Positions 27,631 through 53,781 of a stretch of DNA of 64,000 nt are shown piece by piece. The position numbers and the translations under genes are program-made. Under the pieces are notes generated by a model. It saw nothing but the letters and a program-made list of their open reading frames with translations. It searched no databases and was not told where the DNA came from. Within the stretch, counting starts at the first letter, position 1. The number at the start of each line of letters is the position of its first letter. Source of the stretch: Candidatus Rifleibacteriota bacterium (GTDB taxonomy: Bacteria > Muiribacteriota > Ozemobacteria > Ozemobacterales > Ozemobacteraceae); the NCBI GenBank assembly GCA_018818125.1, contig JAHISQ010000021.1, positions 1 through 64,000 on the forward strand. The letters are read 5' to 3'.

Positions 27631-30606
27631 TCAAGAATCTCTGCTATAGCAGATCACTACAAGAGTGAGATCATCCTGCGCTTCCTGCCCGGCAATATGG
27701 CGATAATATCCGACACAAATGCGGTTATATACTTCTTCTGGATCGCTGCCAGCGCTTTCCTGAACCAGTCTGGCAAAATTAGTGTAACCAAGTTCAACAC
27801 CCTCACGATTGCGCGTCTCGATTATGCCGTCTGTATATAACACCAGCATGTCACCTGGCTTAAAAACAATCTCGCGCTCCTGAAAATTGGCCTTCTTAAA
27901 AGCGCCCAAAGCAGCACCTGCCAGTGTTATTTCTTCGACCCGTCCGTTACTGCAGAAAATTGGCGAACAGCCACCGGCGTTAGCATAAATTGCTGTACCG
28001 GTAAGACAATCGGCCATCAGATACTGAAAAGTCATGATTTTTTTCTGTTTTCGCGTTTTTGAACCATAAATCAGCTCGTGCAGGCGTTCGAGCAATTTAA
28101 CCGGCGATTTCAGCTGTTCACGGCTTTTAACAATCCCGGCTTTCGCCATTGCCATAATCAGAGCCGCACCAACCCCGTGTCCGGCCACATCTCCGAGCAA
28201 GGCAGCCATACTGTTGTCATCGACGGCAAAGTAATCAAAATAATCACCGCCAAGTTCGGCCATGGCAAGACTTTTGCCGTAGACGCGAAAGCCGCCTTTG
28301 TGCAGAGCGCTTTGCGGGAAAAGGCTCTCCTGAACCACTTTAGCAACTTCAAGCTCTTCGAGGCCGCCCATCACTTCGTCAAAAATGGCTGCTGCTTCGC
28401 CAAATTCGTCTTTGCCCATGTCACCGATCCGATGCCTGAAATTCCGCTTTTCAACGGCAAGAGCGGCGGACTGAAGACTGTTGAGCGGATTCAAGAAGCT
28501 CCGCGAAAGAATCTGCGCAAGCCATGCCGCAAGAATCAGGCAAAACAGTGCAAACAGGAACAGATCGACTCTCTGGCCTGCAATCATTCTGTCCAGGCGC
28601 TCAAGCGGGTAAAGACCAAGAATTCTGTAACGCGACAGATGCTTTCCGTTGAACCCAAGGACCATATATTCCTGGCCATCCATCTGTAGAATTTCTATTT
28701 CTTCGGTAGGCTGGTCAGTCAGTCGACTAAAATAGCTCTGGAGCGCTTCTGGAACTTCGTAATAATGCGGATAGAACTTCTTATCGAGCTGGTTACAGAC
28801 TATCACCCGAAGCCCCATAGGATTGCGATTGATCTCATCAATAGTTTTCTGCAAATATTCGAGCTGAACAGACTGACTGTTCCAGATCATCAATGCCATG
28901 AAATCTATTTGTTCGTCACGATTGGCCGACATAAAATTAAGCAGAGCCAGATTCAGGTTCTGCCCAAATCCCCATGGAGTCAGGCCACCCATTGCCTTGA
29001 TAAAGCCATGGGTAATTTCGGCAAAAGATTTTTGCATCAGAGATTCAAAAAGCAGTTCGAGACGATCGGCCTCTTTGTTGCTACGGGCTACACCATTTAA
29101 CTCACTCATTATTCGCTTGCCAATAATATTGGCAACCTGGGCATTCTGCGAGTCATTGCTTTTGTCGGCAGGATTTTCTCGGTGCCGCTGCTCCAGACTC
29201 TCATTTATACGCTCGATTCCATTGTAAGAACCAGCTATTATCGACGAACTTGCAATCAGGTAATAACTATCGACCAGAAGTCCGCGGCAGGCTCTAATCA
29301 TCTGTTGATTGCCGGTTTCGTCAATTTCACGACCGCGCATTGTCTTTACCCATTCTTCGAGATATTTTTTGGTGTTGTACTCAACTTTGCTCCAGAAAGA
29401 TTGCAGGCGCTCATCATAATTTTGCAGAAGCACAAGTGAGCGGCGGTGGGTTTCTTTGAGAATAGCATCGTGTTTCTGTGCATAGTGTTCGCGCGCAAAA
29501 ATTGATATAGCCATGAATGGAATAGCACTGGCAAAGAAAAATATAAAGGCTATGCGCGGCCTTATTGAAATTGAGCCAGGCTGACCTGCGATGGTAATGC
29601 GCCACGAATAAACTAAAAATGGCAACATCAGCACCGCGAACAAAAAAGCACCTAATAGAGGGTAACCTCTGCGCTCGCGGGCACTGTAGTATTTGTCTGC
29701 TTGAGCAAAAACCCTTATTTCAGGCGTTAAAAAGGCAGTCGCCAGAAACTGGCTCTCTGTTTCAAGAGTTGTTGCATTACTTTGTTCAAGCTGTTTTAGC
29801 TGGATCAGCAGACTGTCAGGGCTGCCAACGGACCGGGGCGACCAGAAGCCTGAAATATCAGCACCGGGCCTGAAAATGCCGAAAACCTGCTGCCGGTTGT
29901 GGGCGAAGTTTTTGAGCTGCATTTTTATCCCCATATCTGATTTAATGATCGCCGGATCGAACAAAATCAGATAAACCCGCTCAGCGTAGGAATTAGACCA
30001 GACCAGAGGGCGGTGCAATGCACTGTCTGTCCAACAGAGTGTGTAGCGTCTGGGTTTAGCGTTATCTTCGAGCATGCGTCTCACATACTGTGGCCCCAGA
30101 ATCAGTCGCACCTTGGCAAGATCTGTTTTTACGATTGCTCGCTTTCGCTGCCTGCATACGTTGCCATGGCAAGCCTGTGCAAGCTCGACAAAAACCTCAC
30201 GCCATTCCGGACTCGCAAAGTATTCGGGTATATTGTGCGTGATGACTCTGCCATCTGAATCCCAGATAAGGTAAGAAAAAAGGTTGTCAAAAACCTTTCT
30301 TTCATTTTCGAGCCATTCAATAATCAGGCTGTCTGTCGCCAAATTGTTGGAAAAAAGCATAAACTGCTCGTCAAAATGCCGAGCCAGGTAATTTTCGATG
30401 CCGACACCACGATTAGCTTCGTTGAGTGCCTGTTGCAGGCTCATCTTCAGTTCTTCGCCACGTTCCTGCTCAACAAGCTGGCAATATCGATCTACAGCCG
30501 TAAAAATCAGCATTGCCGGCACACCGACAAAACATGCAGCCATAAGCAGCCAGGCCACGACTCTTTTGCCCGTAGCTGCCCATCCTACACTGCCTGCTGC
30601 CTTCAT
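27631..30606 (-). CDS. Membrane receptor PP2C/SpoIIE phosphatase, A-type (pair 2)
   Basis: 991 aa from the ATG at 30606, with GGAGG 5 nt upstream (a GTG one codon earlier also fits). Four-TM receptor as in pair 1. Extracytoplasmic domain 1 carries the A-type marks YLIWDSDG, LGPQ and CWTDS..RPLVW. Domain 2 has LELLFESLMQKS, WGFGQ and NRNPMGL. HAMP (MGKDEFGEAAAIF) leads to PP2C: GGDYFD (D789), GDVAGHG (D807), YTDG (D927), QDD (979-980), all intact, with NAGGCSP and KIMTFQYL. The preceding B-type gene ends 13 bp upstream. The FHA-GAF-GGDEF gene follows after 84 bp. Confidence 0.92.
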   Translation of the reverse strand: MKAAGSVGWAATGKRVVAWLLMAACFVGVPAMLIFTAVDRYCQLVEQERGEELKMSLQQALNEANRGVGIENYLARHFDEQFMLFSNNLATDSLIIEWLENERKVFDNLFSYLIWDSDGRVITHNIPEYFASPEWREVFVELAQACHGNVCRQRKRAIVKTDLAKVRLILGPQYVRRMLEDNAKPRRYTLCWTDSALHRPLVWSNSYAERVYLILFDPAIIKSDMGIKMQLKNFAHNRQQVFGIFRPGADISGFWSPRSVGSPDSLLIQLKQLEQSNATTLETESQFLATAFLTPEIRVFAQADKYYSARERRGYPLLGAFLFAVLMLPFLVYSWRITIAGQPGSISIRPRIAFIFFFASAIPFMAISIFAREHYAQKHDAILKETHRRSLVLLQNYDERLQSFWSKVEYNTKKYLEEWVKTMRGREIDETGNQQMIRACRGLLVDSYYLIASSSIIAGSYNGIERINESLEQRHRENPADKSNDSQNAQVANIIGKRIMSELNGVARSNKEADRLELLFESLMQKSFAEITHGFIKAMGGLTPWGFGQNLNLALLNFMSANRDEQIDFMALMIWNSQSVQLEYLQKTIDEINRNPMGLRVIVCNQLDKKFYPHYYEVPEALQSYFSRLTDQPTEEIEILQMDGQEYMVLGFNGKHLSRYRILGLYPLERLDRMIAGQRVDLFLFALFCLILAAWLAQILSRSFLNPLNSLQSAALAVEKRNFRHRIGDMGKDEFGEAAAIFDEVMGGLEELEVAKVVQESLFPQSALHKGGFRVYGKSLAMAELGGDYFDYFAVDDNSMAALLGDVAGHGVGAALIMAMAKAGIVKSREQLKSPVKLLERLHELIYGSKTRKQKKIMTFQYLMADCLTGTAIYANAGGCSPIFCSNGRVEEITLAGAALGAFKKANFQEREIVFKPGDMLVLYTDGIIETRNREGVELGYTNFARLVQESAGSDPEEVYNRICVGYYRHIAGQEAQDDLTLVVICYSRDS

Positions 30607-30619
30607 CACTGCCTCCGCC

Positions 30620-33535
30620 TCAATGCTCAGGATAGCCGATGATTACCATCGTACAATCGTCGTCACTGCTTTTGCCTGACCAGTCGAGATATTCCTGATA
30701 CATACACCTGTAGTAATACTCTGAATTTCCCTTGTAATTATGCAGAGCCATCTGCGCAAAGCGCTCATAACCAAGGAATTCGCCGGCGACGCCCCGTGCC
30801 TCGGCAATACCGTCTGTGTGCAAAATCAATGCCTGGCCGGGGCTCAGCTTTAAAGCAACACTTTTATGATGCGGCGATTTGCTTATTCCCAGCGGCAGAC
30901 CGGTAAGTTCGACATATCTTGCTTCACTGCGTCTGCTGTCAACCAGCAACGGGTAGCAATGTCCGGCATTGGTAAGCTGAATATTCGCAGAAACTTTGTC
31001 GAGAACCAGATATTGAAAGGTCATCATGCTTTTGAGCTGACCTGCCCTGAGGCTATAGATTATTTTATGCAGCTCTCCGATAAATCTGGCACCATCCAGC
31101 ATCTCTTCGCGGGTCGCCATTTTAACGCCAGCTTTGGCCATAGCCATGATCAACGCTGCCGAAATTCCGTGCCCGGCTACGTCGCCAATCATTACACCCA
31201 GTCTGTCATCGTCGATCTCGATATAATCGTAATAGTCGCCGGCCAGAGTTGTCATTGCCACGCTCTGCCCGTAAATATCGAAAGGCTTGAACCTCGGCTG
31301 TTTCTCAGGCAAAAGGCTCTCCTGAACGATCCTGGCAATTTCAAGCTCACCAAGTCCCTCGATCATACGGTTCATGACCTGTCCAAGATGCCCAAATTCA
31401 TCTTTGTCTCTGATCTCTATGCGATGTCGATAATCATGGTGACTGATCGCGGTTGCCGCAGCACTCAGTGCCTTCACCGGCGCAAGAAACTGGCGTGCTA
31501 CTGCTAGCGCGATGATAATTGTCAGAATAATACTCATTGCCGCACCAGCAAGCAGGCGCATGGTTATATCGGTGATTTCTGCCTCAATCATGGAGGTCGG
31601 ATAAACAACTGCAAAACAAGTGCTATTCATATTTTTGCCAAGCCAGCCAGTTGCCAGATGCGGTTGCCCGGCAAATTGCAAACTGCCATAAGTGTTGCCG
31701 CTTGAATGTGCAGCAGCAGCAAGAAAAGACGACAATTCGTCACCAGCTGAGCCAATATCTGGAACAATCTGACGACTGTTTAGAGTTTTAGCGAAAGCTC
31801 CGGACATCAGACTGTTGCGTGGTATTTTGCTGAAATATTGATCGAGAAAAATTTTCTGAAATTTTTCTTCATCCCACAGCAGCAACAGAAAATAATTGTT
31901 GATATAGGAATCAGGGTCACCCAACATGCTCCAGTAGCTCATTTTCATTCTGTCGCCAATAGTCATCGGCCATATTTTGCGACTATCTCGAATCGAGTCG
32001 CGTACAAAATCTGATTCCTCTGGATCAGCGATCTTTGATAAAACATCAGATTTATCAGCGGTCACAATAATGCGGTTTTGAAACTTGAGAATCGCATCAG
32101 CAAGATTTTTCACATAAGAGTTAGAATGATTTACGTCTTGCCCATCGGCACCGAGCGCGAAGTTCATTTTACCATCCCGCCCAATGAGAAATGCCTCTGA
32201 AGGACTATACTCCATGATTGTGGCTCTGATACGTTTGAGCTGAGCGGCAGTCAGTATTTGTGCCCCGTTCTCTTTGTTTATACGCTCAACCATCAAGTTC
32301 AGCTGTCGCGTATATTTTTCGCTCTGAATTACAAATCTGTTATCCAGGTCACGCAATAATCTCGCAGATTCAAGCTGAATCTCGTTGCGCAGCGATACTT
32401 TTCTATTCTGAAGATAATCATAAGCTATGGCACCAAGCACCGTCAGCGGCGCGATGTTCGCGTAAAGAAACAGCAGCAGCAGCTTCCATCTAATAGAGAA
32501 AAACGCGCGACGAACCTCAAAGTTAAAATAAAGTAGCAACCCGACCAGAAAATACACCACTACTGACCGGGTAATTATGCGCACGCGAATAGTCTCTGGT
32601 GAATAAATTTCTTTGTCTTTAAGGGTCAGCGCAAATATGCGGGTATGCGGATTGAGCATCTGGACAACGATTTGAGCATTGGCAGTCTCAATCGTCTGTT
32701 CTGATGAATTTTCGTATTTTGCCAGAGCCAGAACAACTTCGTTTGAAATATGAGCATTTTTGCACATATATGGCTCAGTAAGGGCATGTAAAGAGGCAAA
32801 ACCGACACAGATCTCTTTGTTGCTCTGGTTTACCGATCTTACAATGCTTTTAATGCCATGATTGTCTTTTATAACATCCCAGCTCATGAAGCAGAGCATG
32901 CTGACTTTGCTGTCGGTGTGATACCAGAAATACGGGCGGTCTTTGCCATAATCGGCAAGAATTACCGAAGATCTGTCATCATCGAGATATGGCAATTCAA
33001 GGGTGTCTGGCACGAAAACCCGGCCAAGAAAATGTTTGATCAGATTAAAATTGCTTTTAACAACTTCGAGACTCTTGATTTCTTCCGTGCTGTCGGCGGC
33101 GAGATGCGCCGTAACACCACGCAGAACGTCATATAGACGGCGCACAACAAAACGAAAGCGCTTTTCATCGGTGAGCTTTTCGACCACTGCCCCGGATTTG
33201 TCCCAGACGATAAATTCGAAGCAGCCCGGGTGATTTTTTTTCAATCTTGCGATGGCTTTTTCGAGATATACGACAGGATCTGCCTGCTGCACAGCTATGT
33301 CAAATGATGTCTGGAGCATAAGGTGGTAATAGCGACGTTCATCGTTATAAGGCATCAGAATTTTGAGGCGTTCAGACAGCTCTTGATACACCTGATGCCG
33401 ATGATTATCGAGTTTCAGCTCTAAAAGGCTTGCCAGACTGGAATTAAAGACAAAAAATGGAAACACAAAAAAACAAAACACCAGCCCGGTGTATTGCAGC
33501 CATGATGCAACTCGGCTTTTTTTTGATTCCTGCAA
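30620..33535 (-). CDS. Membrane receptor PP2C/SpoIIE phosphatase, B-type (pair 2)
   Basis: 971 aa starting with TTG at 33535; GGGAG lies 5 nt upstream and the N-terminus then aligns with the other B-type proteins (TM1 from about residue 13). B-type marks: FIVWDKSG, LTDEKR, FLGRVFVP, FWYHTDSKVSML in domain 1; RDS..DSRKI, YWSMLGD and LLLLWD in domain 2. HAMP with DKDEFGHLGQVMNR. PP2C: LAGDYYD (D767; Ala replaces the first Gly), GDVAGHG (D785), HTDG (D908), DDD (959-960), NAGHCYP. The 70-bp gap to the upstream cyclase-like gene contains no clear terminator, so read-through is possible. Confidence 0.91.
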   Translation of the reverse strand: MQESKKSRVASWLQYTGLVFCFFVFPFFVFNSSLASLLELKLDNHRHQVYQELSERLKILMPYNDERRYYHLMLQTSFDIAVQQADPVVYLEKAIARLKKNHPGCFEFIVWDKSGAVVEKLTDEKRFRFVVRRLYDVLRGVTAHLAADSTEEIKSLEVVKSNFNLIKHFLGRVFVPDTLELPYLDDDRSSVILADYGKDRPYFWYHTDSKVSMLCFMSWDVIKDNHGIKSIVRSVNQSNKEICVGFASLHALTEPYMCKNAHISNEVVLALAKYENSSEQTIETANAQIVVQMLNPHTRIFALTLKDKEIYSPETIRVRIITRSVVVYFLVGLLLYFNFEVRRAFFSIRWKLLLLFLYANIAPLTVLGAIAYDYLQNRKVSLRNEIQLESARLLRDLDNRFVIQSEKYTRQLNLMVERINKENGAQILTAAQLKRIRATIMEYSPSEAFLIGRDGKMNFALGADGQDVNHSNSYVKNLADAILKFQNRIIVTADKSDVLSKIADPEESDFVRDSIRDSRKIWPMTIGDRMKMSYWSMLGDPDSYINNYFLLLLWDEEKFQKIFLDQYFSKIPRNSLMSGAFAKTLNSRQIVPDIGSAGDELSSFLAAAAHSSGNTYGSLQFAGQPHLATGWLGKNMNSTCFAVVYPTSMIEAEITDITMRLLAGAAMSIILTIIIALAVARQFLAPVKALSAAATAISHHDYRHRIEIRDKDEFGHLGQVMNRMIEGLGELEIARIVQESLLPEKQPRFKPFDIYGQSVAMTTLAGDYYDYIEIDDDRLGVMIGDVAGHGISAALIMAMAKAGVKMATREEMLDGARFIGELHKIIYSLRAGQLKSMMTFQYLVLDKVSANIQLTNAGHCYPLLVDSRRSEARYVELTGLPLGISKSPHHKSVALKLSPGQALILHTDGIAEARGVAGEFLGYERFAQMALHNYKGNSEYYYRCMYQEYLDWSGKSSDDDCTMVIIGYPEH

Positions 33536-33605: not shown

Positions 33606-36545
33606 TTATTGAGGTGCGCGCGTTCGCAGGTTTATCAGCTCATATATCGGGTATCTGCGACTCTTGCCTTTAATCGGGATTCTATCGATAAAACTTACTC
33701 TTGCCTGGCCTTTTGCTTTTCTTATAGTCGAAGGAGCGATAATAATGCCGGTATTTAACGCCTTATCAGCCTGACCCTTAAGTCGAGCGGCCATGTTTAC
33801 CGCATCTCCTATTACTGTGTAGTCAAGTTTTCCTTTGCGAGAACCAATTCGGCCGGAAAGAACAATGCCGCTGGAAATTCCGATGTGAGTGTTGATTCCA
33901 GCTGCCAGCAACTCCTGCCTGAGCATTAAAGCGGCGGCACAGGCAGAAACTGCGTGATTACCGCCGGTAGATTTCGAGCGATAAACTATCATCAATGTGC
34001 CTTCAATTACCTTGTCAAGACTTCCGCCCGCCGCTCGGCTGACTGTGTCGCCAACATAAATCAATCGATCGAGCAGCTCCATTACGTGATTTCCCTGCAT
34101 CGTTGCGATATTCTCAGTAAAATCCGCCACTGACGCGAACAGAATCGTTGCCTCCAGTCGTTCTCCTCCTGGCTGCAAACTTGCTTCGTCTTCCGATTTA
34201 ACCGCATTTATTACTTCTTCAGAAACGAACTGAAAAAGCCGTTCTTTCTCGACGACTCCGATCAACATAGAGTCAAAAGCAACCTTCAGCTCTTCAAATT
34301 CGTCGCCGGATCTGATAACTGCAGTTGCATCAAAATTTCCCTGACTGACGCAGTCTGCAAGACCAGCAAGCTTTAGAATCGGCTCAATATAGATTTTACC
34401 AAAAAGATTGAATATGAAAACAAGCAATGAAAGAGTGTAGAACAGCAACAGCGCCAAACTCCAGTCAGTGCTGAAAAGATTTTTTCTATTTGCAGTAACT
34501 GCGATCAACAAAGGGAATCTAGGCACATAGTCAATATATGTTGTCAAATTTTTCTGATTTACAATGCACGAAGAGTTGGTGCGACTGACCACCGCAAGCT
34601 GTTTTTTGATATTCTCAACATCAAAACTGGAAATGAGAGATTTAATCGAGAATATGCCATTGTCTTGATCATAACTCAAAATAGCGGCAGCTATTGAAAA
34701 ACCGCTGAATTCTGAACGAAGATCAGATTGATTAAGCTTGGAAGCAAATTCATGCGCCAGTTCTTTTCGATCAAAGCGTAAGGTCAAATACCCTGTTATA
34801 TCACGTTGAAGCGATGAAAAAATCGGTGCGACCGAGTAGGAATTATGACTTTTAAACGTATCAAAATCTGTGAGACTGCCATAGCTGTTTAATATCGAGT
34901 TTACAAATTCAGATTCCAGATAAGATGATTCTTTTGATTGAACTACTGACTGTGCAATGTGTTCTGTTTGTTTTCTGGGCGACCCGGATACTTCTACGAT
35001 TATCGAAGCAAGTATGCCTCTCTGAAAGTTCTCTTCGCGATTTTCAACGATATTTTCAGAGTACCGACTATTGGTCAGTCGAAGCGTTTCCTTCTCCTGA
35101 CGGTCAAAAAACATGGCGCTTGCCGAACTCTGTTGCAGATTGTTTTCAAGAAATGCCAGAGTTAAGTCATCAGATTTGTCTGCAAAATTTTCCAGTCGGC
35201 CGGCCAGATCTACGGTCGTTTTCTTTATATCCAGCAGATAAGAAACAAGCTGTTGCTGAATCTCATTTGACTTGATCTTGAGCGTCTGCTCTATTTCAGC
35301 CTGAGTGAATCGTTCGTTAAATTCGCGCCAGGTAAGATAAGATGCAGTAAGCAAAGACATTGGCAAAAAAGAGACTATTGCGATACCAACAGTTACTTTT
35401 AGCCTGACACCTGCTTGAAATTTGAATCCATAGAGAAAGATATGTAGAATAAAAATCAGACCTGCCATGCATAACAGTTTACTGAAAAATGAAATTGCAC
35501 TGGCATACTTACGAAGCGGATGAGCAAGCAATTCAACCGGATAAGACACTTTCATCAAAGGCATTTTTGCTTTGAATTTTTCCAGGTTTTCGGGATAAAA
35601 GGCGCCATTCTGTATGTAATGAACAATCAGGGGCTGTGGTAGAGTCGTCTGTAGATGCACTCCGCCAATATCCTGGCTGAAAAGTGTTATGGATTCCGGA
35701 TCTACAGAATTTGAATCTGAGATGCCGTGTGAATGTCTGACAAAGGTTCTCTGTAAAGTTTTATCAGCCGAAGAAATGCTATGTTTCAAAACATGTGAAG
35801 TAGATATGGCGTTGCCCATTATTATGAGCATTGCTCCGCCAGATATTCGTTTTGCCTGATTATGTTCGCTGTAAAATGGAATATAGTGGAAATAGACAGT
35901 TCCGCCGAGTTTTGATGAAACTGAACGGGTTGTAATATCTGCTGCAAGGGGAATTATAGAAATCAGGCCAAATTGTCTTTGCCAGAAACTGTCGGAATCA
36001 CTACGCAGTTTTTCCCAGTTGTTCTCATCTTTTAAGGTCGTTGATTTTGCTGCATTTTGCCGGTCAATATAATCCATAAAGGGCTGGTTGTTGCGAGACA
36101 TAAAGTATTTCAGTGTAAGACTTCTAGGTATCGTTTTTATGATTTTGTTGTAATTGGAATCACAATAGATATCAGTGATTTTCTCGGTATCCGGTCCATG
36201 AATAATCACTCCGGCAAGCTTTATGCGACTATGAACAAAAAATTGTGCTGCAAATGATTCTGCATTGAGTGAGGAAACATTCTGCTCATTTTTGCTTACA
36301 AATCCCGTGATTTGCCGATCCAGATAGTTGCAGACGTCTACATCCTCTCGAAACATTTCCATCTCAATCATCAGTCTGGACTTGTTAATTCTGGCATTCA
36401 TCTGTTCGGTAATGCTGAAAAGCTTTTCAAGAGAGAAGTTCAGGACAAGCGCCGGAAAAGCCAGCAGGAAAAGCCATGAACAGATCAGAACAGTGCCGCT
36501 TATTCTGCGGTTTATGATTACAGCACTGCTTTTTGTTGTATTCAT
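33606..36545 (-). CDS. Membrane receptor with class III cyclase domain, C2-like half (lacks metal ligands)
   Basis: 979 aa. TM1 about 14-37, a first extracytoplasmic domain, TM2/TM3 (LKVTVGIAIVSFLPMSLL), a second extracytoplasmic domain, TM4 (LALLLFYTLSLLVFIFNLF), HAMP about 725-775 and a class III nucleotide cyclase homology domain from about 795. The two metal-binding Asp positions are lost: ILFASVADFT has Ser805, and LDKVIEGTL has Gly849. By contrast the adenine-selecting Lys845 and Thr910 and the transition-state Asn917 and Arg921 (YTVIGDAVNMAAR) are intact. Alone it should be inactive; it fits the C2 role in a heterodimer with the preceding gene, which it overlaps by 4 bp (ATGA). Confidence 0.9.
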   Translation of the reverse strand: MNTTKSSAVIINRRISGTVLICSWLFLLAFPALVLNFSLEKLFSITEQMNARINKSRLMIEMEMFREDVDVCNYLDRQITGFVSKNEQNVSSLNAESFAAQFFVHSRIKLAGVIIHGPDTEKITDIYCDSNYNKIIKTIPRSLTLKYFMSRNNQPFMDYIDRQNAAKSTTLKDENNWEKLRSDSDSFWQRQFGLISIIPLAADITTRSVSSKLGGTVYFHYIPFYSEHNQAKRISGGAMLIIMGNAISTSHVLKHSISSADKTLQRTFVRHSHGISDSNSVDPESITLFSQDIGGVHLQTTLPQPLIVHYIQNGAFYPENLEKFKAKMPLMKVSYPVELLAHPLRKYASAISFFSKLLCMAGLIFILHIFLYGFKFQAGVRLKVTVGIAIVSFLPMSLLTASYLTWREFNERFTQAEIEQTLKIKSNEIQQQLVSYLLDIKKTTVDLAGRLENFADKSDDLTLAFLENNLQQSSASAMFFDRQEKETLRLTNSRYSENIVENREENFQRGILASIIVEVSGSPRKQTEHIAQSVVQSKESSYLESEFVNSILNSYGSLTDFDTFKSHNSYSVAPIFSSLQRDITGYLTLRFDRKELAHEFASKLNQSDLRSEFSGFSIAAAILSYDQDNGIFSIKSLISSFDVENIKKQLAVVSRTNSSCIVNQKNLTTYIDYVPRFPLLIAVTANRKNLFSTDWSLALLLFYTLSLLVFIFNLFGKIYIEPILKLAGLADCVSQGNFDATAVIRSGDEFEELKVAFDSMLIGVVEKERLFQFVSEEVINAVKSEDEASLQPGGERLEATILFASVADFTENIATMQGNHVMELLDRLIYVGDTVSRAAGGSLDKVIEGTLMIVYRSKSTGGNHAVSACAAALMLRQELLAAGINTHIGISSGIVLSGRIGSRKGKLDYTVIGDAVNMAARLKGQADKALNTGIIIAPSTIRKAKGQARVSFIDRIPIKGKSRRYPIYELINLRTRAPQ

Positions 36546-39520
36546 TTCTTACCCACTGGCGTAAATGCTTTTTGCTGCTGCGTCAGCTGAATAAATGAAA
36601 ATTCTGAGCAAATTTCTGCTGTTTTTTCACAGACAGCTATTTTTTCTCCGGATAAACTTGCGGTCAAAGCCTCCAGTTCATTGGCGCGGGGAATAATTGA
36701 ACCAATGACCATAAAAACCTGTCTACCAGATCTGGCTCCAGTTACTCCTGCCATTGCCTGATCCGTAACGATACCGATTCCGTTTTCTACAGTAAATTGC
36801 CCATTTTTTTGCCGAACACTGTTCAATTTTTTTAACCGCCGTCTCATTTCAAAAGCGCTATTTAAGGCTCTTTTCGCATGATTTTCCGCTGTCGTATCAG
36901 GATAGAAAACAGCAACGACAGCATCTCCGATAAAACGTTCGACGCTACCGCCATATTCTTTTACAGCGGTCTCCATCTCAGAAAAATAGTCGTTTAACAG
37001 AGTTACAATCTCTTCTGGCGGATGTTTTTCACTCAGGCTGGTAAAACCTCGAATATCAGAAGAAAGAACTGACAATTCAATGTTTTCTGCCCGGCCTTGT
37101 TCCTGAATAGTCTCATTTGCTACACGTTCTATAAGCCTTTCGGGAACGAATCTGCGCATTTTCTCTCTTTGCTGCAGGCCTTGCGCCATAGAATTGTAAG
37201 ATTGTGCCAACATACCCAGTTCATCAGTTTTTTCTATGATTATTCTGGTCCGGTACTCACCTGTGCTTATCTTCTGGAGAGCAGGAATGAATTCTTTTAC
37301 TGGCCTGGCAAACAGCTCCCACAGGAAGTCGGCAAGCAATATCAGACTCAAGATTGAAAAGGCTGCACAGGCAAATGGCAGCAGCTGGAGCAGGAAAATC
37401 AGCCACAGGTCAGGCGAAGACTCAACAATTCCAGCAAATACATAAGGATTCTCAGCAGAGTATTTCCAGCTGGCGGCACGAATTATGTTGTCTTTCTGCT
37501 TTACTTCACTGCCAGAATAACTTTTGAGCGAAGCATACTCAAGAAGTTGCTTCTCAGGATCGATTCCGGTCAGGGTTGCAGGCCACCATTGTTCGAGGTT
37601 TCTCTCGGCATTTCTTTGGCCAATAGCGAAATTTGCGCTGGAAAAAGCGCTGTTATCGCGAAATGTCTTATTTGAGCCCTGGCTTATTGAGTCAAAAGCG
37701 CCACCAAATTTGCTCAGGTCAAAATTCAGTATAAAGCTTATTCCAGCAACTTGCTGAATTGAACCCATCGCAGCTGGCAGCAGAAAGTAAGTCATTCTGG
37801 AAAGAGGAGATATTCTGATCAGATTCTTAACTTCGCATCCTTCATAACTCAGGATTTTTCCATTCTCATATTCATGCCTAAAACCTGATAGAAAGCCAGA
37901 GGCCAGATTAGCCACCTCTAGCTCTCTCTTAATCTCATTGCTTTTGTTTTGCAGCACGCCTAAATTGTCGAGAAACCTGTAACCTGAATAGCGAACCAGT
38001 CTCATTGGCATTTTTGCGTTGGAATTAGCTGGACTCAGAACTTTAATTCGGCCATCATCAAGAAACACCGAAATTTCTTCCCGACTGGTAGCTGGCAACA
38101 ACAGTTGCGCCGCTGTGGGCGGGAAAAGGCCCTCCCTGGCCTTCATAAGCTGGTCAGCAATATGCTTCTTGGCAGTCAGCGCTATCAGCTGTCTCTTCAA
38201 TGACAGATCTCTCACAAACTGTGTTGCCTCATACATTTTGCTTTCGGCAATTGCCTGTATTTCAATTTTGCGGATTTTTTCTGTCTGATCAATTATCAGA
38301 GCGGCAAAACTGGCAATGAGAATGTAAGGCAGCAATATAATCAGACCAGAAATAAGCAGTATTTTGCGCCTGAGTTTGCCAGCAATTGTTAAGCCATGAA
38401 TCCATAGATAAACGCCTGCCAGAAATAGAAAAAGGATCAGAGCTTTTTGTGCAAAGCTGATAGCTGGGCGATAAAACAACAGGTTTTTATTTAATTTGGA
38501 ATTGGAAGAAAAGACACGGAGGAAACAGTTATCCAGATTGGCAGAACTGATCTTGCTTGATCGATTTGCAAGGTGCATTTGAAGGGGTTCTGGTAGTCTC
38601 CGCAACAATGACAGACCATCTTTTTCCTCTATAAGTGTGGTTTTCGGCTGGAGTTTGCAGCGAACAATTCTTCTGGCAAAATCACCACTGCCTTTGCAAG
38701 CTTCTTTTAGAATAGCGTTATAAGAAATGTCTCTACTGGCAAATACTGTAAAATAGCCGCCCAGGGTATGATTTCCCTGCTGTGTGGCGTTGAAATAGAA
38801 GTAAAGCTTTTGTGAGCCAAAGCTGGTGGTAAAAATTTCACGGCAAGTTCCTGATACTCTAACTATATATGCGACTGGCGAAAAAAAGTTGCAGACAAGA
38901 GCCTCTAAATACTCCTCGCGATGACCTGCCAATTTGTTACCATATATTTCAAATGAATTCATCCGTTCCTTCAAAATCGGGTTCGACCAGAATTTATTTT
39001 TAAGAACTTCTATAATCGTTGTAAAAATCAGAGCATGCTCAAGTGTTTTTTTATCAAGAGGTGTTCGAGCGGCAAAGTCTTTACTGTAAAATGAATAGCT
39101 CTTTTTAGCGTCATACTCGAATGAAAGCAGAAAAATTGGCTTGATGCCAAAATTCCCGGCAAGATAGCTGAGTATTTTTGAATTAGTGTCAGAATTGTAT
39201 ATGCCGGGATCATTACCCTCTTCGGCCATCAGATGCGTTCTCAGCGTAAGATCTATTTCCATCTTATGCAGCGCGCGCTCAATAAAATTTCTCGGAATAA
39301 GAGCCTCAGAGAAGTCGTTGATCTCTGTCTCAAAAGAACTTCGTCTGAGGTTATCTGCTCTCAACAGCAGGTCTGAAGTGTTCTGACTCAGGTGATTCAG
39401 AGCAAAAAATGCTGGCAAAAACACGATAACAATAAGTGTTAATGAGTTAAAAAATCCTATTCCTGCTGCTGTTTTGCTCGTATTCAAAAAGACCTGTTCG
39501 CTGCGCCGCTTCATAAACAT
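36542..39520 (-). CDS. Membrane receptor with class III cyclase domain, C1-like half (lacks Asn/Arg)
   Basis: 992 aa, same four-TM plus HAMP chassis: TM1 about 25-43, TM2/TM3 (LILFLFLAGVYLWI, KILLISGLIILLPYIL), TM4 (LLQLLPFACAAFSIL), HAMP (EKTDELGMLAQSYNS). The cyclase domain begins near 812. Both metal Asp are kept: D822 in SSDIRGFTSL and D866 in RFIGDAVVAVF. The Lys position is Arg862, the Asp/Thr position is Met937, and the Asn and Arg positions are Pro944 and Glu948 (MVIGSIIPRANELE). This mirrors the C1 half of animal adenylyl cyclases. No ribosome binding site is obvious before the ATG; a second ATG lies two codons in. A good promoter stands 40-70 bp upstream. First gene of a possible long operon. 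Confidence 0.9.
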   Translation of the reverse strand: MFMKRRSEQVFLNTSKTAAGIGFFNSLTLIVIVFLPAFFALNHLSQNTSDLLLRADNLRRSSFETEINDFSEALIPRNFIERALHKMEIDLTLRTHLMAEEGNDPGIYNSDTNSKILSYLAGNFGIKPIFLLSFEYDAKKSYSFYSKDFAARTPLDKKTLEHALIFTTIIEVLKNKFWSNPILKERMNSFEIYGNKLAGHREEYLEALVCNFFSPVAYIVRVSGTCREIFTTSFGSQKLYFYFNATQQGNHTLGGYFTVFASRDISYNAILKEACKGSGDFARRIVRCKLQPKTTLIEEKDGLSLLRRLPEPLQMHLANRSSKISSANLDNCFLRVFSSNSKLNKNLLFYRPAISFAQKALILFLFLAGVYLWIHGLTIAGKLRRKILLISGLIILLPYILIASFAALIIDQTEKIRKIEIQAIAESKMYEATQFVRDLSLKRQLIALTAKKHIADQLMKAREGLFPPTAAQLLLPATSREEISVFLDDGRIKVLSPANSNAKMPMRLVRYSGYRFLDNLGVLQNKSNEIKRELEVANLASGFLSGFRHEYENGKILSYEGCEVKNLIRISPLSRMTYFLLPAAMGSIQQVAGISFILNFDLSKFGGAFDSISQGSNKTFRDNSAFSSANFAIGQRNAERNLEQWWPATLTGIDPEKQLLEYASLKSYSGSEVKQKDNIIRAASWKYSAENPYVFAGIVESSPDLWLIFLLQLLPFACAAFSILSLILLADFLWELFARPVKEFIPALQKISTGEYRTRIIIEKTDELGMLAQSYNSMAQGLQQREKMRRFVPERLIERVANETIQEQGRAENIELSVLSSDIRGFTSLSEKHPPEEIVTLLNDYFSEMETAVKEYGGSVERFIGDAVVAVFYPDTTAENHAKRALNSAFEMRRRLKKLNSVRQKNGQFTVENGIGIVTDQAMAGVTGARSGRQVFMVIGSIIPRANELEALTASLSGEKIAVCEKTAEICSEFSFIQLTQQQKAFTPVGKK

Positions 39521-41854: not shown

Positions 41855-44854
41855 TTAATCAGATGGTTTGCATACCGTGATAATGAGAGTAAGGTCGTCC
41901 TGTGCCTCACTGCTACCTATGTGACGGCTGTAGGCCGCAAAAACATTCTGATAGAAGACTTCCGGATCAGGGTTATAGTTAGCCTGCAACAGCTCCTTAA
42001 ACCCGTCGTAACCGATTTCGCTGCCATCTGGCGCGCGTGCTTCGATAATCCCGTCGGTATAGAACACTATTGCATCGCCAGCACCAAACTCTATGGCCGC
42101 CTCACTATATTGCGCCTTGTTAAAAGCACCCAGAGCCGAACCAGTCAGAGTAAATTCCTCAACCGACATGGTCGCAGCTCTTATCAGCATCGGCGAACAG
42201 CCGCCGGCGTTGGAGTATGAACCCACGCCACTCATGGAATCGAGATAAAGATATTGAAAAGTCATAATCTTCTTCTGCTGCTTGCTCTTAGAGGCAAGAA
42301 TCATCTTATGCAGCTCCAGCAATAAATTGCCAGGAGTGCTCAGAAGATATGGTGAGCTGAGAATTCCCGCCTTGGCCATTGCCATGATCAGCGCAGCACC
42401 GACGCCATGCCCGGCAACATCTCCGGCTAGAACGGCAAAATGCTGATCATCAACCACAAAGAAGTCAAAATAGTCGCCGCCAAGCTCGCTCATACTCACG
42501 CTTTTTCCAAATATTGCGAAGTTCCCATGCTCAAAGCGCGGCGGCGGGAAAAGACTATCCTGAACAATTCTGGCCACTTCCAGCTCTTCAAAGCCCACCA
42601 TAACTTCGTTAAAAATAGTCGCAACCTCGCCGAATTCATCTCTACCGACTCCAGCAACCCGATGAGTGAATTCGCGGTTTTCTATCGCCAGCGCTCCGTC
42701 GCGCAAAGCATGTAGTGGTTCGACAAAGCTCTTAGCCAATATTTGAGCCAGGCTGGCTGCAAGGACAATGCTGAAAAGTACAAATAACAACAGTTCGCTT
42801 TTCTGCTGACCAATAACGCGATCGATATTGCGCATCGGGTAAAGGACAATCAGCTGGAAAAAGCTGAGATTATGACCATTGAATCCGACAGCTATGTATT
42901 CTTCGTCGGCAAGATTTATCAATTCTATTTCTTCGGTTGGCTTCGGGCCAAGCCTGCTGGCAAATTCACGCAAATCCAGGGCTCGGCTGGCCAATTCCGG
43001 AAGATATTTACTATCCAGTCGACTCCGCGTAATCAGGCGCGAACCAATGGCATTGCGATTAGCCAACGCCACGGCCTTTTGCAGGAACCTTGTCTGAGCC
43101 ATAACCGGCCGCCACGAAATGATGGTCACATAATCGGTTAAGCCAGGTTCGACAACCGTAAGCAGCTTAAAAAAGGACAACTCTGCAACCCTGCCAAAGC
43201 CCCAGTTATTAACATGTCCAAGGTTACCGATCACCGAATTGGTCATTTCGAGAAATGTCTGCTGCAAAAGCGATTCTGCGATCAGTTCCAGCTTACTGAG
43301 GACCTGCGCCTCGATTTCAACACGATTGAGATCACTCATAACCTTTTTAGCAATCAGGTTGGCCGCAATTACGTCAGATTCTACCATGCCTGAAATTTTT
43401 CTATTTGGCTGCGAGGCCTCGCGATCAATACTGGCATTATCCAGGCTTCCTTTGAGAACATAAAGCCCGTTGCGATTAATTAACTTGTTGCTGGAGCTGG
43501 CAACTACAAAATAGTTCCCAGGCTGAAAGGCAGCCAACCTCTTTTCCAGATCAACCGTCAAATCAATATCCAGATTTTTGCCTCTCGATTGCAACGCCCA
43601 TTCGTTAAGGAGTTTATCCAGAGAGACAGCATCATTATTCATAAAAGATAAGAAACGCCGATCGAAGCTCAAAAGCTTATCAACTGAGCTTTGATGAGCA
43701 TCTGCCATTAAAATGCGGCGTTTTTGCGAATAGTGTTCGTGTGAAATCAAAACCATGGCCAGCAAGGGAATGCCGCAGGCAAAAATGAAAAGGAAAGCAA
43801 GCCTGGTTTTTATGGTAGCTCGTCCTGGCCTGCCGGCAACAACAGTCTGCCAGGTATAAATTAAAAACGGCAGCATGAACAGGAGACACACCATAGCACC
43901 TGCCAAAGCTCTCCAGATAATGACAATCTCGTCATGGCCCCTTGGAATTAAAGCAAAAATTCGAAGTGCAGGCGCAAGAAAAGAATAACCAAGATATGCG
44001 TGCTGCATTTCTACAAAGCTCAAAGATTCATTCTCGCAACGTGCAAATGTTTCGCCTGGGATTTCAATATTTCTGGCATCACCTGTATACCAGATACTGT
44101 CGGTGTAACTGGAATTCGTGTTGATAAGTCCGAGGGATATGCCGCTGCGATCGGCAAATTTTTCCAGAGAATTCTTCAGACCATTTTTTTGCGCGAGTTT
44201 GTCCTGGTTAAAACGCAGTAAAAGTGCGATTTTCGAGACAAAATACATGGCAATCGGAGGACGCACCAGCGAGCTATCCAGCCATGCAAGTGAAAACCTA
44301 TCCGGATCAATGTGGCTGCCTACCATTGCCTGCATCAACTGAGGTCCAATAATTTTGCGGGCAACCTCAATGTCACCGCCGACTTTCCCGTATAATCCAG
44401 GATCGCCCATAACCGGATAATTGCTGAGAACTTTAAAAACTTCCAACCATTCTTCAGGACTATTTTCATCAGAAAATGTCTTCTTAATTTCTACGCCAGC
44501 GGGTGTCCAGGCAATAAAGTCGAATTCATCAGGAAACAGTCGCTGCTGCTCTTCAATCCAGGCCAGTATAAGTCCAGTCTCGGTGCCTTCTTCTTCAAAA
44601 CTTCGAAATTTCTCATAGAAAAGGCGACACCAGAAAACCTCCTGTTCAAGGTTGCCAACAGCCTCATTGGTAGCTCTCTGCAGCTGAGTTTTCAGTTTAA
44701 ATTTAATCTCGTCCTCAGCAACATTATAAAACCTGAAAACAGCAAAGGATACCAGCGCAGCCGGAATACCAGTCAGGCATAATACCATCAGCAGCCAGCG
44801 GAAAAGCCGGCGCGATCGTGAAGCTATAGAGTTATTTTCAGCTGTTTGCGTCAT
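41855..44854 (-). CDS. Membrane receptor PP2C/SpoIIE phosphatase, A-type (pair 3)
   Basis: 999 aa, the longest A-type. TM1 about 18-42 (RWLLMVLCLTGIPAALVSF), domain 1 with FIAWTPAG, IIGPQ and LAWLDSSLVRP, TM2/TM3 (TRLAFLFIFACGIPLLAMVL), domain 2 with LELIAESLLQQT, WGFGR and NRNAIGS, TM4 (LLLFVLFSIVLAASLAQIL), HAMP (GVGRDEFGEVATIFNE), PP2C with GGDYFD (D794), GDVAGHG (D812), YTDG (D934), QDD (986-987), NAGGCSP. The ATG at 44854 has no ribosome binding site and lies 17 bp inside the preceding B-type gene, so it probably depends on coupled translation. Last gene of the long phosphatase block. Confidence 0.92.
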   Translation of the reverse strand: MTQTAENNSIASRSRRLFRWLLMVLCLTGIPAALVSFAVFRFYNVAEDEIKFKLKTQLQRATNEAVGNLEQEVFWCRLFYEKFRSFEEEGTETGLILAWIEEQQRLFPDEFDFIAWTPAGVEIKKTFSDENSPEEWLEVFKVLSNYPVMGDPGLYGKVGGDIEVARKIIGPQLMQAMVGSHIDPDRFSLAWLDSSLVRPPIAMYFVSKIALLLRFNQDKLAQKNGLKNSLEKFADRSGISLGLINTNSSYTDSIWYTGDARNIEIPGETFARCENESLSFVEMQHAYLGYSFLAPALRIFALIPRGHDEIVIIWRALAGAMVCLLFMLPFLIYTWQTVVAGRPGRATIKTRLAFLFIFACGIPLLAMVLISHEHYSQKRRILMADAHQSSVDKLLSFDRRFLSFMNNDAVSLDKLLNEWALQSRGKNLDIDLTVDLEKRLAAFQPGNYFVVASSSNKLINRNGLYVLKGSLDNASIDREASQPNRKISGMVESDVIAANLIAKKVMSDLNRVEIEAQVLSKLELIAESLLQQTFLEMTNSVIGNLGHVNNWGFGRVAELSFFKLLTVVEPGLTDYVTIISWRPVMAQTRFLQKAVALANRNAIGSRLITRSRLDSKYLPELASRALDLREFASRLGPKPTEEIELINLADEEYIAVGFNGHNLSFFQLIVLYPMRNIDRVIGQQKSELLLFVLFSIVLAASLAQILAKSFVEPLHALRDGALAIENREFTHRVAGVGRDEFGEVATIFNEVMVGFEELEVARIVQDSLFPPPRFEHGNFAIFGKSVSMSELGGDYFDFFVVDDQHFAVLAGDVAGHGVGAALIMAMAKAGILSSPYLLSTPGNLLLELHKMILASKSKQQKKIMTFQYLYLDSMSGVGSYSNAGGCSPMLIRAATMSVEEFTLTGSALGAFNKAQYSEAAIEFGAGDAIVFYTDGIIEARAPDGSEIGYDGFKELLQANYNPDPEVFYQNVFAAYSRHIGSSEAQDDLTLIITVCKPSD

Positions 44855-47777
44855 GATTATGATTGATAATGATCAGAGTAAAGTCGTCGTCAGCCGATTT
44901 TGCCCACTCCTGGTAAGCTGCATAAACGCGCTTGTAGTAGACTTCGGGATCAGGGTCATAGACTTCGAGAAGAAGTTTTCTCAGCCTTTCGTAGCCAAAT
45001 TCTTCGCCATTTGCATTATTAGCTTCAGCGATACCGTCGGTATAAAGAATCAGCGCTTCACCTCTGGCAATTTTGAATTCATAATTGCTGTATCTCGGCC
45101 TTCTGCCAATTCCCAGCGGAGTGGCAACATGCTCAATATACTCGGCAGATTGAGTTTGAGGTCTTACAATCAGCGGAAAGCAGTGACCGGCATTGGAAAA
45201 ATTGAAATCGCCAGTCTTTGGATTAAAAACAAAGTATTGTAAGGTCATCATTCTCTTGAGTTTTTCGTTTTTGATCGCAAAAAAGATCTTGTGCAAACGC
45301 ATCAACAACGATGCGGGATCAAGCTTTTCAGCATTTGACGACATCAGGACTCCAGACTTGGCCATTGCCATCATCAGCCCGGCGGGTACGCCATGCCCGG
45401 CAACATCACCAATAACCACGCCCCAGTTGTTATCATCAATTTCGAGGCAATCATAGTAATCGCCGCCAAGTGTGGTCATGACAACAGTATCACCAAAAAT
45501 TGCAAAATTACCGGCCTGAAAACGATTTCCCGGCAAAAGGCTTTCCTGGACTATTCTTGCAACCTCCAACTCGCCGAGTCCCTCTATTACGCGGTTGAAT
45601 ACAGAACTCAAATGGCCAAATTCATCCTCGTCCCCAGGTGGAATACGATGCCGAAAATTCTGCGCTCCAATTGCCAGGGCACCCTCACCCAGACGATGGA
45701 TGGGAACCAGAAACTGCGAAGACAATGCATGACCGATAATAAAAGTCAGCAACAAACTTATAATGGCGCCAACTACAATATTATTGCGAATCTTGTCGAC
45801 ACGGATTTTTATCTTCGATTCCGGATAGGTAAAGGCCAGAATCAGATGATTGAGATTGCGCCCGCGAGCGCAGGCAAAGATGCTTGATTGCTCATCAATA
45901 ATCAGATTTCCGCTCTGACTGTCACGAAAACCTGCAGCTCTTTCGAATTCCGGCAACAGCGCAGGAGGTATCGCAGAATTCTCAGGCCAAACACGACTGC
46001 CGGCAGCATTTCTAGCAACAAAGTTTGCCTTGAGCGAGTTTTTTTGAGCGGACACACAATATTGATCAATATATTGCTCCTGAAGATCATCGCTGTCCCA
46101 GATCAGTATTAAAATGTGAGTGTTGTTGTAATTACGCCGATCACCAAAAATGTACCAGTAACCGATTTTTGTAATGTTACCAAGATTAATCAAGGTAATT
46201 TTGCGGGCAAGCCGATATGAATCTCTTATAATATCTGCGTTTTCTGGAGAAAGCATTGAGCTGAAAATATCTTTACTTGCCTGTTTTGCGAATATTCCGT
46301 TATTAAACTTAAGAATCGCCTCACCAAGCTGCACTATAAAGGTCGAATTTTGCCGACTGCCGCCTGTAATATCCTGCTGTTTACAAATCAGCCGGGCATC
46401 TTTAGAGACAAAATAGGTTTCGGCCGCCTTGAACTGTCGCGTAAAAGTCTTTATCTGTTCAGCTGTATTTTTTTCGAAATCCTCAGAATCAGTATTCTGA
46501 TTCAGCTGATCAAAAAAGCTGTTCAGCTTTCCAGCTACATCAACCTTTATCTGCGCATAGCGCATGTCGAAATCACGGATCTGCCTCAGCAGATCGGACT
46601 TAACTTCATTCCGCAAAGAAACTTTTTTATTATTGAGATAATCATGCGCAATGAAAGCGAGTATTGCCAGAGGAGCAAGATTGGCCAACAGAAAAAGCCC
46701 GGTCAACTTCCATCTGATAGATATAAAAGACATGCGGTAATTTATATGAAAATACAGAAGCAGATGCAAAAGCAACAAAAACAGGGTTATCTGAGTGAAT
46801 CTCAAATCGAGCTGTATCGCTTTAGACCAGATCTGCGGCTGTTTTTCGAGCAGAGAGAAGCTGCGGATACCTGGCTGCGCAACATCCAGCATTATTAAAA
46901 GTTTATCAGTTTCAAAAATTTGTTCAGAAAGGTTTTCAAATTCGGCGAGAGATCTGACTAGAACCGGCAAAAATGTCTGCGGAACAGGAGTTGCCGGATT
47001 TGTAATATCGGGACTTGCTGAAAACCCGTTAATTATACCGGCGTTCTGCTTATTAAGCACCTCCACAATCTTGTTAAGCCCAATGTGATTATGCAGAAGA
47101 CGGTCACTTAAAAAGCATAGGAAGCTGACTTTACTGCCAACGTGGTACCATACCGAATTTAAATTGTTGTTAAAATCTGTCAGCAGTGGACCAGCATTTT
47201 GCCCAGCCAGATAGGGCCGGTCGAGATGGTTTGGCAGAAAAATCCTGCCCAGATATTTTCTGACAAGATTCAGATTGCTTTTTATCAGCGGCAGCTCTTT
47301 TATATTGCACTGACTGTCGATAGCCATGTTTTCGGCCACTTCTTTGAGAACCTGATACAAACGTGACAAGATATAGTTATAACCCTTGCGGTCGGTTAAA
47401 TCCTGGACAATTTTGCCCTTTGCATCCCATACAATAAACTCAAAATCGCCGGGATACTGCTTTTTAAGATTTTCGATATTGCTCTGCATGTATGAAAGTG
47501 GTCTGGCATGTGCCTGTGCATTATCAAATATTTTTTTGAGCAATAAATGCAGGTATCTCGGCCGACTGCTGTATTTTTCTATCTGCTCAAGATTTTTCCG
47601 CATAACCTCAATGGCTTCAGACCTTAGCGTAGAGGTTTTTAGCGAATGCAGATGTTCGAGCCCGGAATAAATTATATAGAGCGGAAAAATCAAAAAACAA
47701 AAAGCGTAGATCAGCAGCGGGAAAAAATTTCCAGCTAAACCGCTTTTATGTGCGACTGTAGATTCAGGCGTCTTCAT
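44838..47777 (-). CDS. Membrane receptor PP2C/SpoIIE phosphatase, B-type (pair 3)
   Basis: 979 aa. TM1 about 17-36 (FPLLIYAFCFLIFPLYII). Domain 1: FIVWDAKG, LTDRKGYNYI, YLGRIFLP, WYHVGSKVSFLCF. TM3 region IRWKLTGLFLLANLAPLAIL. Domain 2: RDSYRLARKI, YWYIFGD and LILIWD. HAMP with GDEDEFGHLSSVFNR. PP2C: GGDYYD (D773), GDVAGHG (D791), YTDG (D914), DDD (964-965), NAGHCFP, PLGIG. Its start overlaps the stop of the upstream A-type gene by 14 bp, so pairs 3 and 4 are joined without a gap. The nearest purine-rich site, GGGAG, lies 13 nt upstream, farther than ideal. Confidence 0.92.
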   Translation of the reverse strand: MKTPESTVAHKSGLAGNFFPLLIYAFCFLIFPLYIIYSGLEHLHSLKTSTLRSEAIEVMRKNLEQIEKYSSRPRYLHLLLKKIFDNAQAHARPLSYMQSNIENLKKQYPGDFEFIVWDAKGKIVQDLTDRKGYNYILSRLYQVLKEVAENMAIDSQCNIKELPLIKSNLNLVRKYLGRIFLPNHLDRPYLAGQNAGPLLTDFNNNLNSVWYHVGSKVSFLCFLSDRLLHNHIGLNKIVEVLNKQNAGIINGFSASPDITNPATPVPQTFLPVLVRSLAEFENLSEQIFETDKLLIMLDVAQPGIRSFSLLEKQPQIWSKAIQLDLRFTQITLFLLLLHLLLYFHINYRMSFISIRWKLTGLFLLANLAPLAILAFIAHDYLNNKKVSLRNEVKSDLLRQIRDFDMRYAQIKVDVAGKLNSFFDQLNQNTDSEDFEKNTAEQIKTFTRQFKAAETYFVSKDARLICKQQDITGGSRQNSTFIVQLGEAILKFNNGIFAKQASKDIFSSMLSPENADIIRDSYRLARKITLINLGNITKIGYWYIFGDRRNYNNTHILILIWDSDDLQEQYIDQYCVSAQKNSLKANFVARNAAGSRVWPENSAIPPALLPEFERAAGFRDSQSGNLIIDEQSSIFACARGRNLNHLILAFTYPESKIKIRVDKIRNNIVVGAIISLLLTFIIGHALSSQFLVPIHRLGEGALAIGAQNFRHRIPPGDEDEFGHLSSVFNRVIEGLGELEVARIVQESLLPGNRFQAGNFAIFGDTVVMTTLGGDYYDCLEIDDNNWGVVIGDVAGHGVPAGLMMAMAKSGVLMSSNAEKLDPASLLMRLHKIFFAIKNEKLKRMMTLQYFVFNPKTGDFNFSNAGHCFPLIVRPQTQSAEYIEHVATPLGIGRRPRYSNYEFKIARGEALILYTDGIAEANNANGEEFGYERLRKLLLEVYDPDPEVYYKRVYAAYQEWAKSADDDFTLIIINHNHDANS

Positions 47778-53681: not shown

Positions 53682-53729
53682 TTGATCCGACCTGCCATGC
53701 AAATCATCAGTTAAGTTACTGCTTCCCAC

Positions 53730-53772
53730 GAAAAAATCTGCTAAAGCATACCGCAAAGCGGCGAATTTAGCA
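53730..53772 (-). terminator. Intrinsic terminator or attenuator between phosphatase pairs 5 and 4
   Basis: On the minus strand, outer arms TGCTAAA / TTTAGCA (53739-53772) enclose an inner perfect hairpin CCGC-TTT-GCGG (53751-53761), followed by TTTTTT (53731-53736). It begins 10 bp past the pair-5 A-type stop, in a 100-bp gap that appears once the pair-4 start is corrected to 53681. Confidence 0.65.
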
Positions 53773-53781
53773 AAAACAGAC

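Follow-up and report, generated by a model that had tools for sequence, protein, structure and literature searches.

Two adjacent receptors of a Riflebacteria genome probably share one split class III cyclase active site

Layout and catalytic residues of the two receptors

The window, a 64,000-nucleotide stretch of a Candidatus Rifleibacteriota genome (contig JAHISQ010000021.1; hereinafter the source genome), contains two adjacent genes for membrane receptors with class III cyclase domains, designated A and B. Both genes and all their features lie on the minus strand. In the list of open reading frames (ORFs), A spans 36542-39520 and encodes 992 amino acids (aa), and B spans 33606-36545 and encodes 979 aa. 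The genes overlap by 4 bp, as originally predicted: the stop codon of A and the start codon of B share ATGA at 36542..36545, an arrangement that suggests translational coupling.

Judged from the ORFs, Pfam matches and hydropathy, A contains an N-terminal transmembrane (TM) span, a long loop, mid-protein TM spans, a second long loop, a further TM span, a HAMP domain (residues 738-784, 37169..37309; PF00672, 35.3 bits) and a C1-like cyclase domain. B has the same layout and ends in a C2-like cyclase domain; HAMP is not among its Pfam matches, unlike those of A. The Guanylate_cyc family (PF00211, cut-off 21.9 bits) matches residues 815-976 of A with 53.4 bits and residues 798-962 of B with 49.1 bits. 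A crude hydropathy method gives about four peaks per half, at residues 23-41, 354-372, 379-410 and 710-728 of A and at residues 19-37, 353-371, 378-406 and 697-715 of B. The full-length model of A has a predicted local distance difference test score (pLDDT) of 71.6 and a predicted template modelling score (pTM) of 0.49. In a fold search with this model, the listed matches cover the cyclase domain, mostly residues 804-992, and VC1 and the alpha subunit of soluble guanylyl cyclase (sGC) are among the structural matches of the modelled domain.

Catalytic residues were placed by pairwise alignments of A to 2w01, 6fht, 3r5g and 5mbh, and of B to 3r5g and OaPAC. The cyclase domain of A (residues 815-976, 36593..37078) keeps both metal-binding Asp residues, D822 (37055..37057) and D866 (36923..36925). 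It has R862 at the Lys position, M937 at the Thr/Asp position, and P944 and E948 (36677..36691) at the positions of the catalytic Asn and Arg. The cyclase domain of B (residues 798-969, 33639..34154) has lost both metal Asp residues, with S805 (34131..34133) at the first position and G849 (33999..34001) at the second. It keeps K845 (34011..34013) and T910 (33816..33818), the predicted adenine-selecting pair, and N917 and R921 (33783..33797), the predicted transition-state residues. In the order Me1, Me2, Lys, Thr, Asn, Arg, a single common alignment and direct reading give the types DDRMPE for A and SGKTNR for B. The original prediction had listed these same residues as kept or substituted in A and B, and both the alignments to solved cyclases and direct reading agree with it.

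Direct reading also locates a KGK motif in B (K959-G960-K961, 33663..33671) that is absent from A. In the 53 pairs described below, this column holds Lys or Arg in 48 of the B partners and a gap in 51 of the A partners. The motif, present in B and missing from A, supports the proposed split as a seventh feature. The full class III set (two Asp, Lys, Thr/Asp, Asn and Arg) is reached solely by A and B combined. In the alignments, neither protein alone has the complete single-chain set of a bacterial homodimeric class III cyclase.

Cyclase pairs in the source genome and its relatives

The source genome, a member of Candidatus Riflebacteria, has 63 class III cyclase domains in 6.06 Mb on 196 contigs, and all 63 domains were typed at the six positions. 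Thirty-eight of the 63 stand in 19 pairs, namely 15 pairs of neighbouring genes and four single ORFs of 1985-2022 aa that each encode both domains. In each of the 19 pairs, one partner (A type) has both Asp residues and has lost Asn and/or Arg, and the other (B type) has Lys, Thr, Asn and Arg and has lost at least one metal Asp. The invariant columns are the two Asp in the 19 A domains and Lys, Thr, Asn and Arg in the 19 B domains. The remaining domains comprise 22 with both Asp and with Asn and Arg, one B-type relic (C90), and two divergent cyclases, C77 (ENKDKL) and C175 (EGRSAH), that are neither A nor B type. C90 (L162:3840-4349) is a lone B-type domain of 169 aa from its start codon, in a 183-aa open frame, with no receptor part and no A partner nearby, and is probably a relic. 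The genome also has 20 matches to cyclic nucleotide (cNMP)-binding domains, in 18 frames; the corresponding proteins are possible receivers of the product. With 63 cyclase domains and 18 cNMP-binding frames, the source genome has a very large cyclic-nucleotide repertoire.

Where relatives are named, those that match best belong to Candidatus Riflebacteria. Every PF00211 match was typed in five genomes, the source genome and the relatives G004 (placed in the same genus), G010, G014 and G023, which gave 198 domains. Any two cyclase domains on the same strand and at most 4500 bases apart were linked, whatever their type. All 64 links join an A to a B. Specifically, 106 of the 198 domains form 42 blocks with alternating A and B in even numbers, hence 53 pairs. 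The residue table of the 53 pairs joins A with B by construction, and the type-blind neighbour count is the unbiased figure. Two pairs, L149 of G010 (186 bases apart) and that of the C117 B gene, are unpaired under a stricter distance rule and are counted as pairs here.

All 84 complete domains stand alone, together with four others, two B and two A. The C90 relic and an incomplete B-like piece in G023 are the lone B domains, and the lone A domains are two low-scoring A-like matches in G010. The occurrence of one partner alone, which had been named as a point against the original prediction, is limited in the five genomes to a relic, a fragment and two low-scoring matches. The first gene is A in 39 of the 53 pairs and B in 14. 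In 16 pairs the partners are fused into one protein of about 2000 aa, always with A first. Across the pairs, both Asp positions are Asp in 53/53 A partners; in the B partners Lys, Asn and Arg are kept in 53/53 and Thr in 52/53, with Ser in one. All 53 pairs of the five genomes, whether neighbouring genes or fusions, show the complementary split, and A and B are therefore likely to join as one enzyme.

A database search with the fused protein C21 retrieved 224 proteins. The best 120 of these were taken, of which the first 112 were typed; the last eight have other architectures. All 112 typed proteins have two cyclase domains, most are near 2000 aa, and 111 show the A-then-B split. The first domain has the Asp pair in 112/112, and the second has Lys, Thr, Asn, Arg and the KGK Lys in 112/112. 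Where organism names are given, they are Candidatus Riflebacteria, Rifleibacteriota, Ozemobacteraceae or uncultured bacterium, and the annotations, where present, call the proteins hypothetical, HAMP-domain proteins or generic cyclases.

Outside the five-genome set, G017 has four further complementary pairs, in addition to a single A and a single B, each on a short contig of its own (10 of 25 matches typed). G016, G018 and G019 have no neighbouring pair by coordinates (by coordinates alone in G016 and G019, and with 2 of 24 matches typed in G018), so pairs were not found in every family of the phylum. Two domains were typed in each of G020 and G021. Those of G020 (L220:294-4644) are tandem neighbours, a B with KDKTNR and an A with DDKSSR, that are 46% identical and each other's nearest rows. 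In a tree, this pair and one complete source-genome cyclase form a starred group of three that lies outside the main A and B groups, and the pair has apparently split on its own. In G021, a fused ORF of 1550 aa (L221:3-2642) has DDKLRA and then -QKTNR close together, and its kin is uncertain. In other phyla, degenerate single cyclases (DDETGK and SARTVA, at L066:7752 and 10166 and at L062:5326) share a locus with complete ones and are not complementary pairs.

Origin, proposed mechanism and alternative explanations

All trees were built by a quick method, with the diagnostic columns removed. Long or odd rows (L047, L032, L062_other, L046 and L151) were excluded from the main trees, and L042, L044, L019_full, L043, L030 and L141 were excluded in addition from the tree with G020 and G021. 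The first tree included outgroup loci up to L072 only, and L050, L052, L053 and L055 were skipped as repeats or fragments. In that tree, the branch that sets A apart has a support of only 3, B needed three changes, and the A and B rows have as nearest neighbours complete single receptors of Riflebacteria and a cyclase of an Oligoflexia bacterium. In one of the main trees, the B rows form one clade with support 93, and A as one clade is not rejected (approximately unbiased test, p-AU 0.657). Across the 53 pairs, A-A and B-B distances correlate with r = 0.76, a value reached in none of 2000 permutations. Because of these clade results and the mirrored distances, the simplest history, read from the sequences with deep branches weakly supported, would be one old split, duplication of the pairs as units, and fusion on top.

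Folds and profiles were compared with those of animal cyclases. In an AlphaFold model of a fused paralogue, 364 residues spanning both catalytic domains superpose on human AC9 at 2.6 Å, and the protein is predicted to adopt an AC9-like C1·C2 arrangement. The Pseudomonas aeruginosa structure 6yii also covers both domains of this model, over 361 residues. In profile searches A prefers C1 and B prefers C2, except for B on AC9.

Taken together, A and B very probably each contribute one complementary half of a shared active site, and are likely to form an obligate 1:1 heterodimer that makes cAMP at a single composite site. Coupling through ATGA would supply the two chains in equal amounts. A and B would meet in the membrane, where the HAMP and stalk helices would bring the C1-like and C2-like domains face to face. 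The Asp pair of A would hold the metals, while B would select adenine with Lys and Thr, stabilize the transition state with Asn and Arg, and bind the phosphates through KGK. The second, mirror-image pocket should be dead, because B has no metal ligands there and A has no Asn or Arg, and may serve as a regulatory pocket. The signals of two different receptor moieties may thus be merged, through the HAMP and stalk helices, into one catalytic output.

Several observations weigh against this reading. The complementary losses that were originally predicted do co-occur in the 53 pairs, but the cleanness of the window pair is not general: the second metal Asp is kept in 29 of the 53 B partners, and among the A partners Lys is kept in 32, Asn in five and Arg in three. 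Because of the retained Asp of B and Lys of A, what stays constant in the split is the first metal Asp on one side and Asn and Arg on the other. The 53 pairs mostly go back to one old split and cannot be counted as independent cases. The clade that unites A and B has a support of just 62, and in one tree the B rows do not come together until held so. In the second C117 pair, the B gene (L021:9904-12756) has an in-frame stop near L021:11796, and P0112, a fused protein of 1971 aa from Candidatus Ozemobacteraceae, has two complete sets, the sole unsplit protein in the 112. The modelled fused paralogue is 31% identical to A and 26% identical to B in the C-terminal region, the whole-chain Foldseek TM score to AC5 is low (0.27), and the best stretch of the B profile on AC9 is C1, not C2.

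The rest of the window provides an internal control. Ten receptors of 963-1021 aa with SpoIIE-like (PP2C) output domains lie at 1029-6825, 27631-33535 and 41855-59657, and follow one another head to tail, overlapping or abutting, as the two cyclase genes do. Three were assigned by Pfam and seven by motif. They include the next receptor of the array, at 30620..33535, and a tandem one at 27631..30609 (both minus strand; Pfam and motif reading), each with its Asp motifs kept. The GDVxGHG and DDxT Asp motifs are present in 10/10, and a third motif varies in two (TDG to SDG or TDS). The active site of PP2C lies within one chain, and that of class III cyclases lies between two. Within the window, as far as the motifs tell, splitting is confined to the between-chain type of site.

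If A and B were pseudo-cyclases, each would homodimerize and only bind nucleotide or relay a signal, and no cyclic nucleotide would be made. Each protein alone does lack essential residues, and the title of 6yii, which matches both model domains, names a class III adenylyl cyclase-like ATP-binding protein. However, exactly the complementary set is retained throughout (Lys, Asn and Arg of every B, both Asp of every A) as the other half varies, and the split is repeated in 111 of the 112 fused proteins typed from the best 120 of 224; we consider this explanation improbable. The split might instead be a by-product of decay after tandem receptor duplication, with no functional pairing, as the setting in a tandem receptor array, the C90 relic and the in-frame stop in the C117 pair would allow. 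Such decay should also yield A+A, B+B or full+dead neighbours, which account for 0/64 links; the ten tandem SpoIIE receptors retain their Asp motifs; and the two families have long existed and show mirrored distances, which makes decay extremely unlikely. Both the pseudo-cyclase and the random-decay readings were rejected on the conservation contrast, the lack of other neighbour combinations and the SpoIIE control.

A heterodimer could also form and use another substrate or make another product, for example cGMP from GTP. Guanylyl cyclases belong to class III, and 2w01, which of the solved structures is closest to A in sequence, is titled guanylyl cyclase Cya2. Lys/Thr is an adenylyl-type pair, and guanylyl cyclases have Glu/Cys at these positions. 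The near-invariance of the B pair (Lys 53/53, Thr 52/53) argues against another substrate, which we regard as unlikely, and the 20 cNMP-binding matches cannot separate cAMP from cGMP. We infer from Lys/Thr that A and B together would make cAMP from ATP.

Viewed more broadly, Riflebacteria, apart from animals, probably invented a repertoire of obligate heterodimeric membrane-receptor adenylyl cyclases, with up to 19 A/B pairs in one genome. Each pair would join two receptors to one site, with the vacated second pocket available for regulation, and several would be fused to about 2000 residues in the animal order TM-C1-TM-C2. The G020 pair, a further tandem pair in the phylum, would have arisen on its own, and complementary loss at an interface active site would be a repeatable evolutionary route, represented here before, during and after gene fusion.

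Comparison with known cyclases

A passage of PMC9552081 (2022) states that bacterial class III cyclases homodimerize and that fused dimeric species are unknown in bacteria, and one of PMC4821796 presents the homodimer versus the eukaryotic state as a fundamental difference. In the literature, judged on listings and abstract openings, no bacterial membrane class III cyclase was found to be reported as a heterodimer or a fusion.

The claim that fused split cyclases as such are new to bacteria was dropped, because soluble adenylyl cyclase (sAC)-like proteins of bacteria show a similar split. One of them, L112:4765-8394, has an A-type and then a B-type cyclase domain, followed by ATPase and TPR. 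The best 120 of its 1392 relatives were typed; 116 have exactly two domains, and four with three pieces were excluded from the counts. In the 116, the first domain has both Asp in 114 (the first Asp is unaligned in two), and the second has Asn in 115 and Arg in 116. The first Asp is never present in the second domain, where its position holds another letter in 52 proteins and is unaligned in 64. Like A/B fusions, sAC (ADCY10) and these C1-C2-ATPase-TPR proteins are fused with the metal half first; they differ in that the cyclase domains adjoin, an ATPase and TPR tail is present, and HAMP is absent. In a tree with sAC-like rows (12/114 and 12/67 rows sampled), grouping of A with the sAC-like first domains has a p-AU of 0.777 and of B with the second domains 0.369. 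The tree cannot decide on an origin independent of the sAC-like group, and that claim was dropped. The P. aeruginosa protein 6yii, compared by title and fold match, is described as a cyclase-like ATP-binding protein and not as a receptor. Because of the soluble sAC-type fused split cyclases and the match of 6yii to both halves, novelty is limited to the receptor type, the two-gene form, the size of the repertoire and the fused membrane form; these are new.

Rv1625c, Cya and other bacterial class III homodimers share the fold of A and B, but have one gene, a full residue set and two identical sites. The natural A/B state is mimicked by artificial complementary Rv1625c mutants: in a passage of PMC4821796, chimeras with complementary inactive Rv1625c domains are active again when combined. 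The chytrid rhodopsin-cyclases NeoR/RGC1 are likewise obligate heterodimers of receptor cyclases; according to a passage of PMC8815786, however, the heterodimeric RGC1/RGC2 retain all cyclization-relevant residues. The alpha and beta subunits of sGC are encoded by two separate genes and form a heterodimer, with alpha similar to A and beta to B in profile searches, and alpha similar to A also in the fold search. In contrast, A and B are membrane receptors with Lys/Thr, not guanine-type residues, and no haem-NO domain is in the Pfam listing for either.

Single bacterial genomes thus contain split and fused putative heterodimers as well as complete receptors that stand alone. The A/B system offers natural paired receptor sets and a clean case of subfunctionalization at an interface site. 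The predicted empty second pocket is comparable to the forskolin pocket of animal cyclases. The mammalian membrane adenylyl cyclases (AC1-AC9) have the same complementary halves, a metal-binding C1-like one and a C2-like one for adenine and the transition state, and the predicted fold of the fused paralogue matches AC9. They are one polypeptide, whereas the window pair is two genes (fused in 16 of the 53 pairs), and have six TM spans per half, whereas each half of A/B shows about four hydropathy peaks, and HAMP is present. The bacterial A and B also have large loops between the membrane spans. Mammalian membrane adenylyl cyclases select adenine with a Lys/Asp pair, and B has Thr in place of that Asp (T910; 52/53). 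The A/B pair is a class III cyclase as a pair; its working would resemble that of animal C1/C2, but with two genes, HAMP, fewer spans and Lys/Thr it is not a member of that group.

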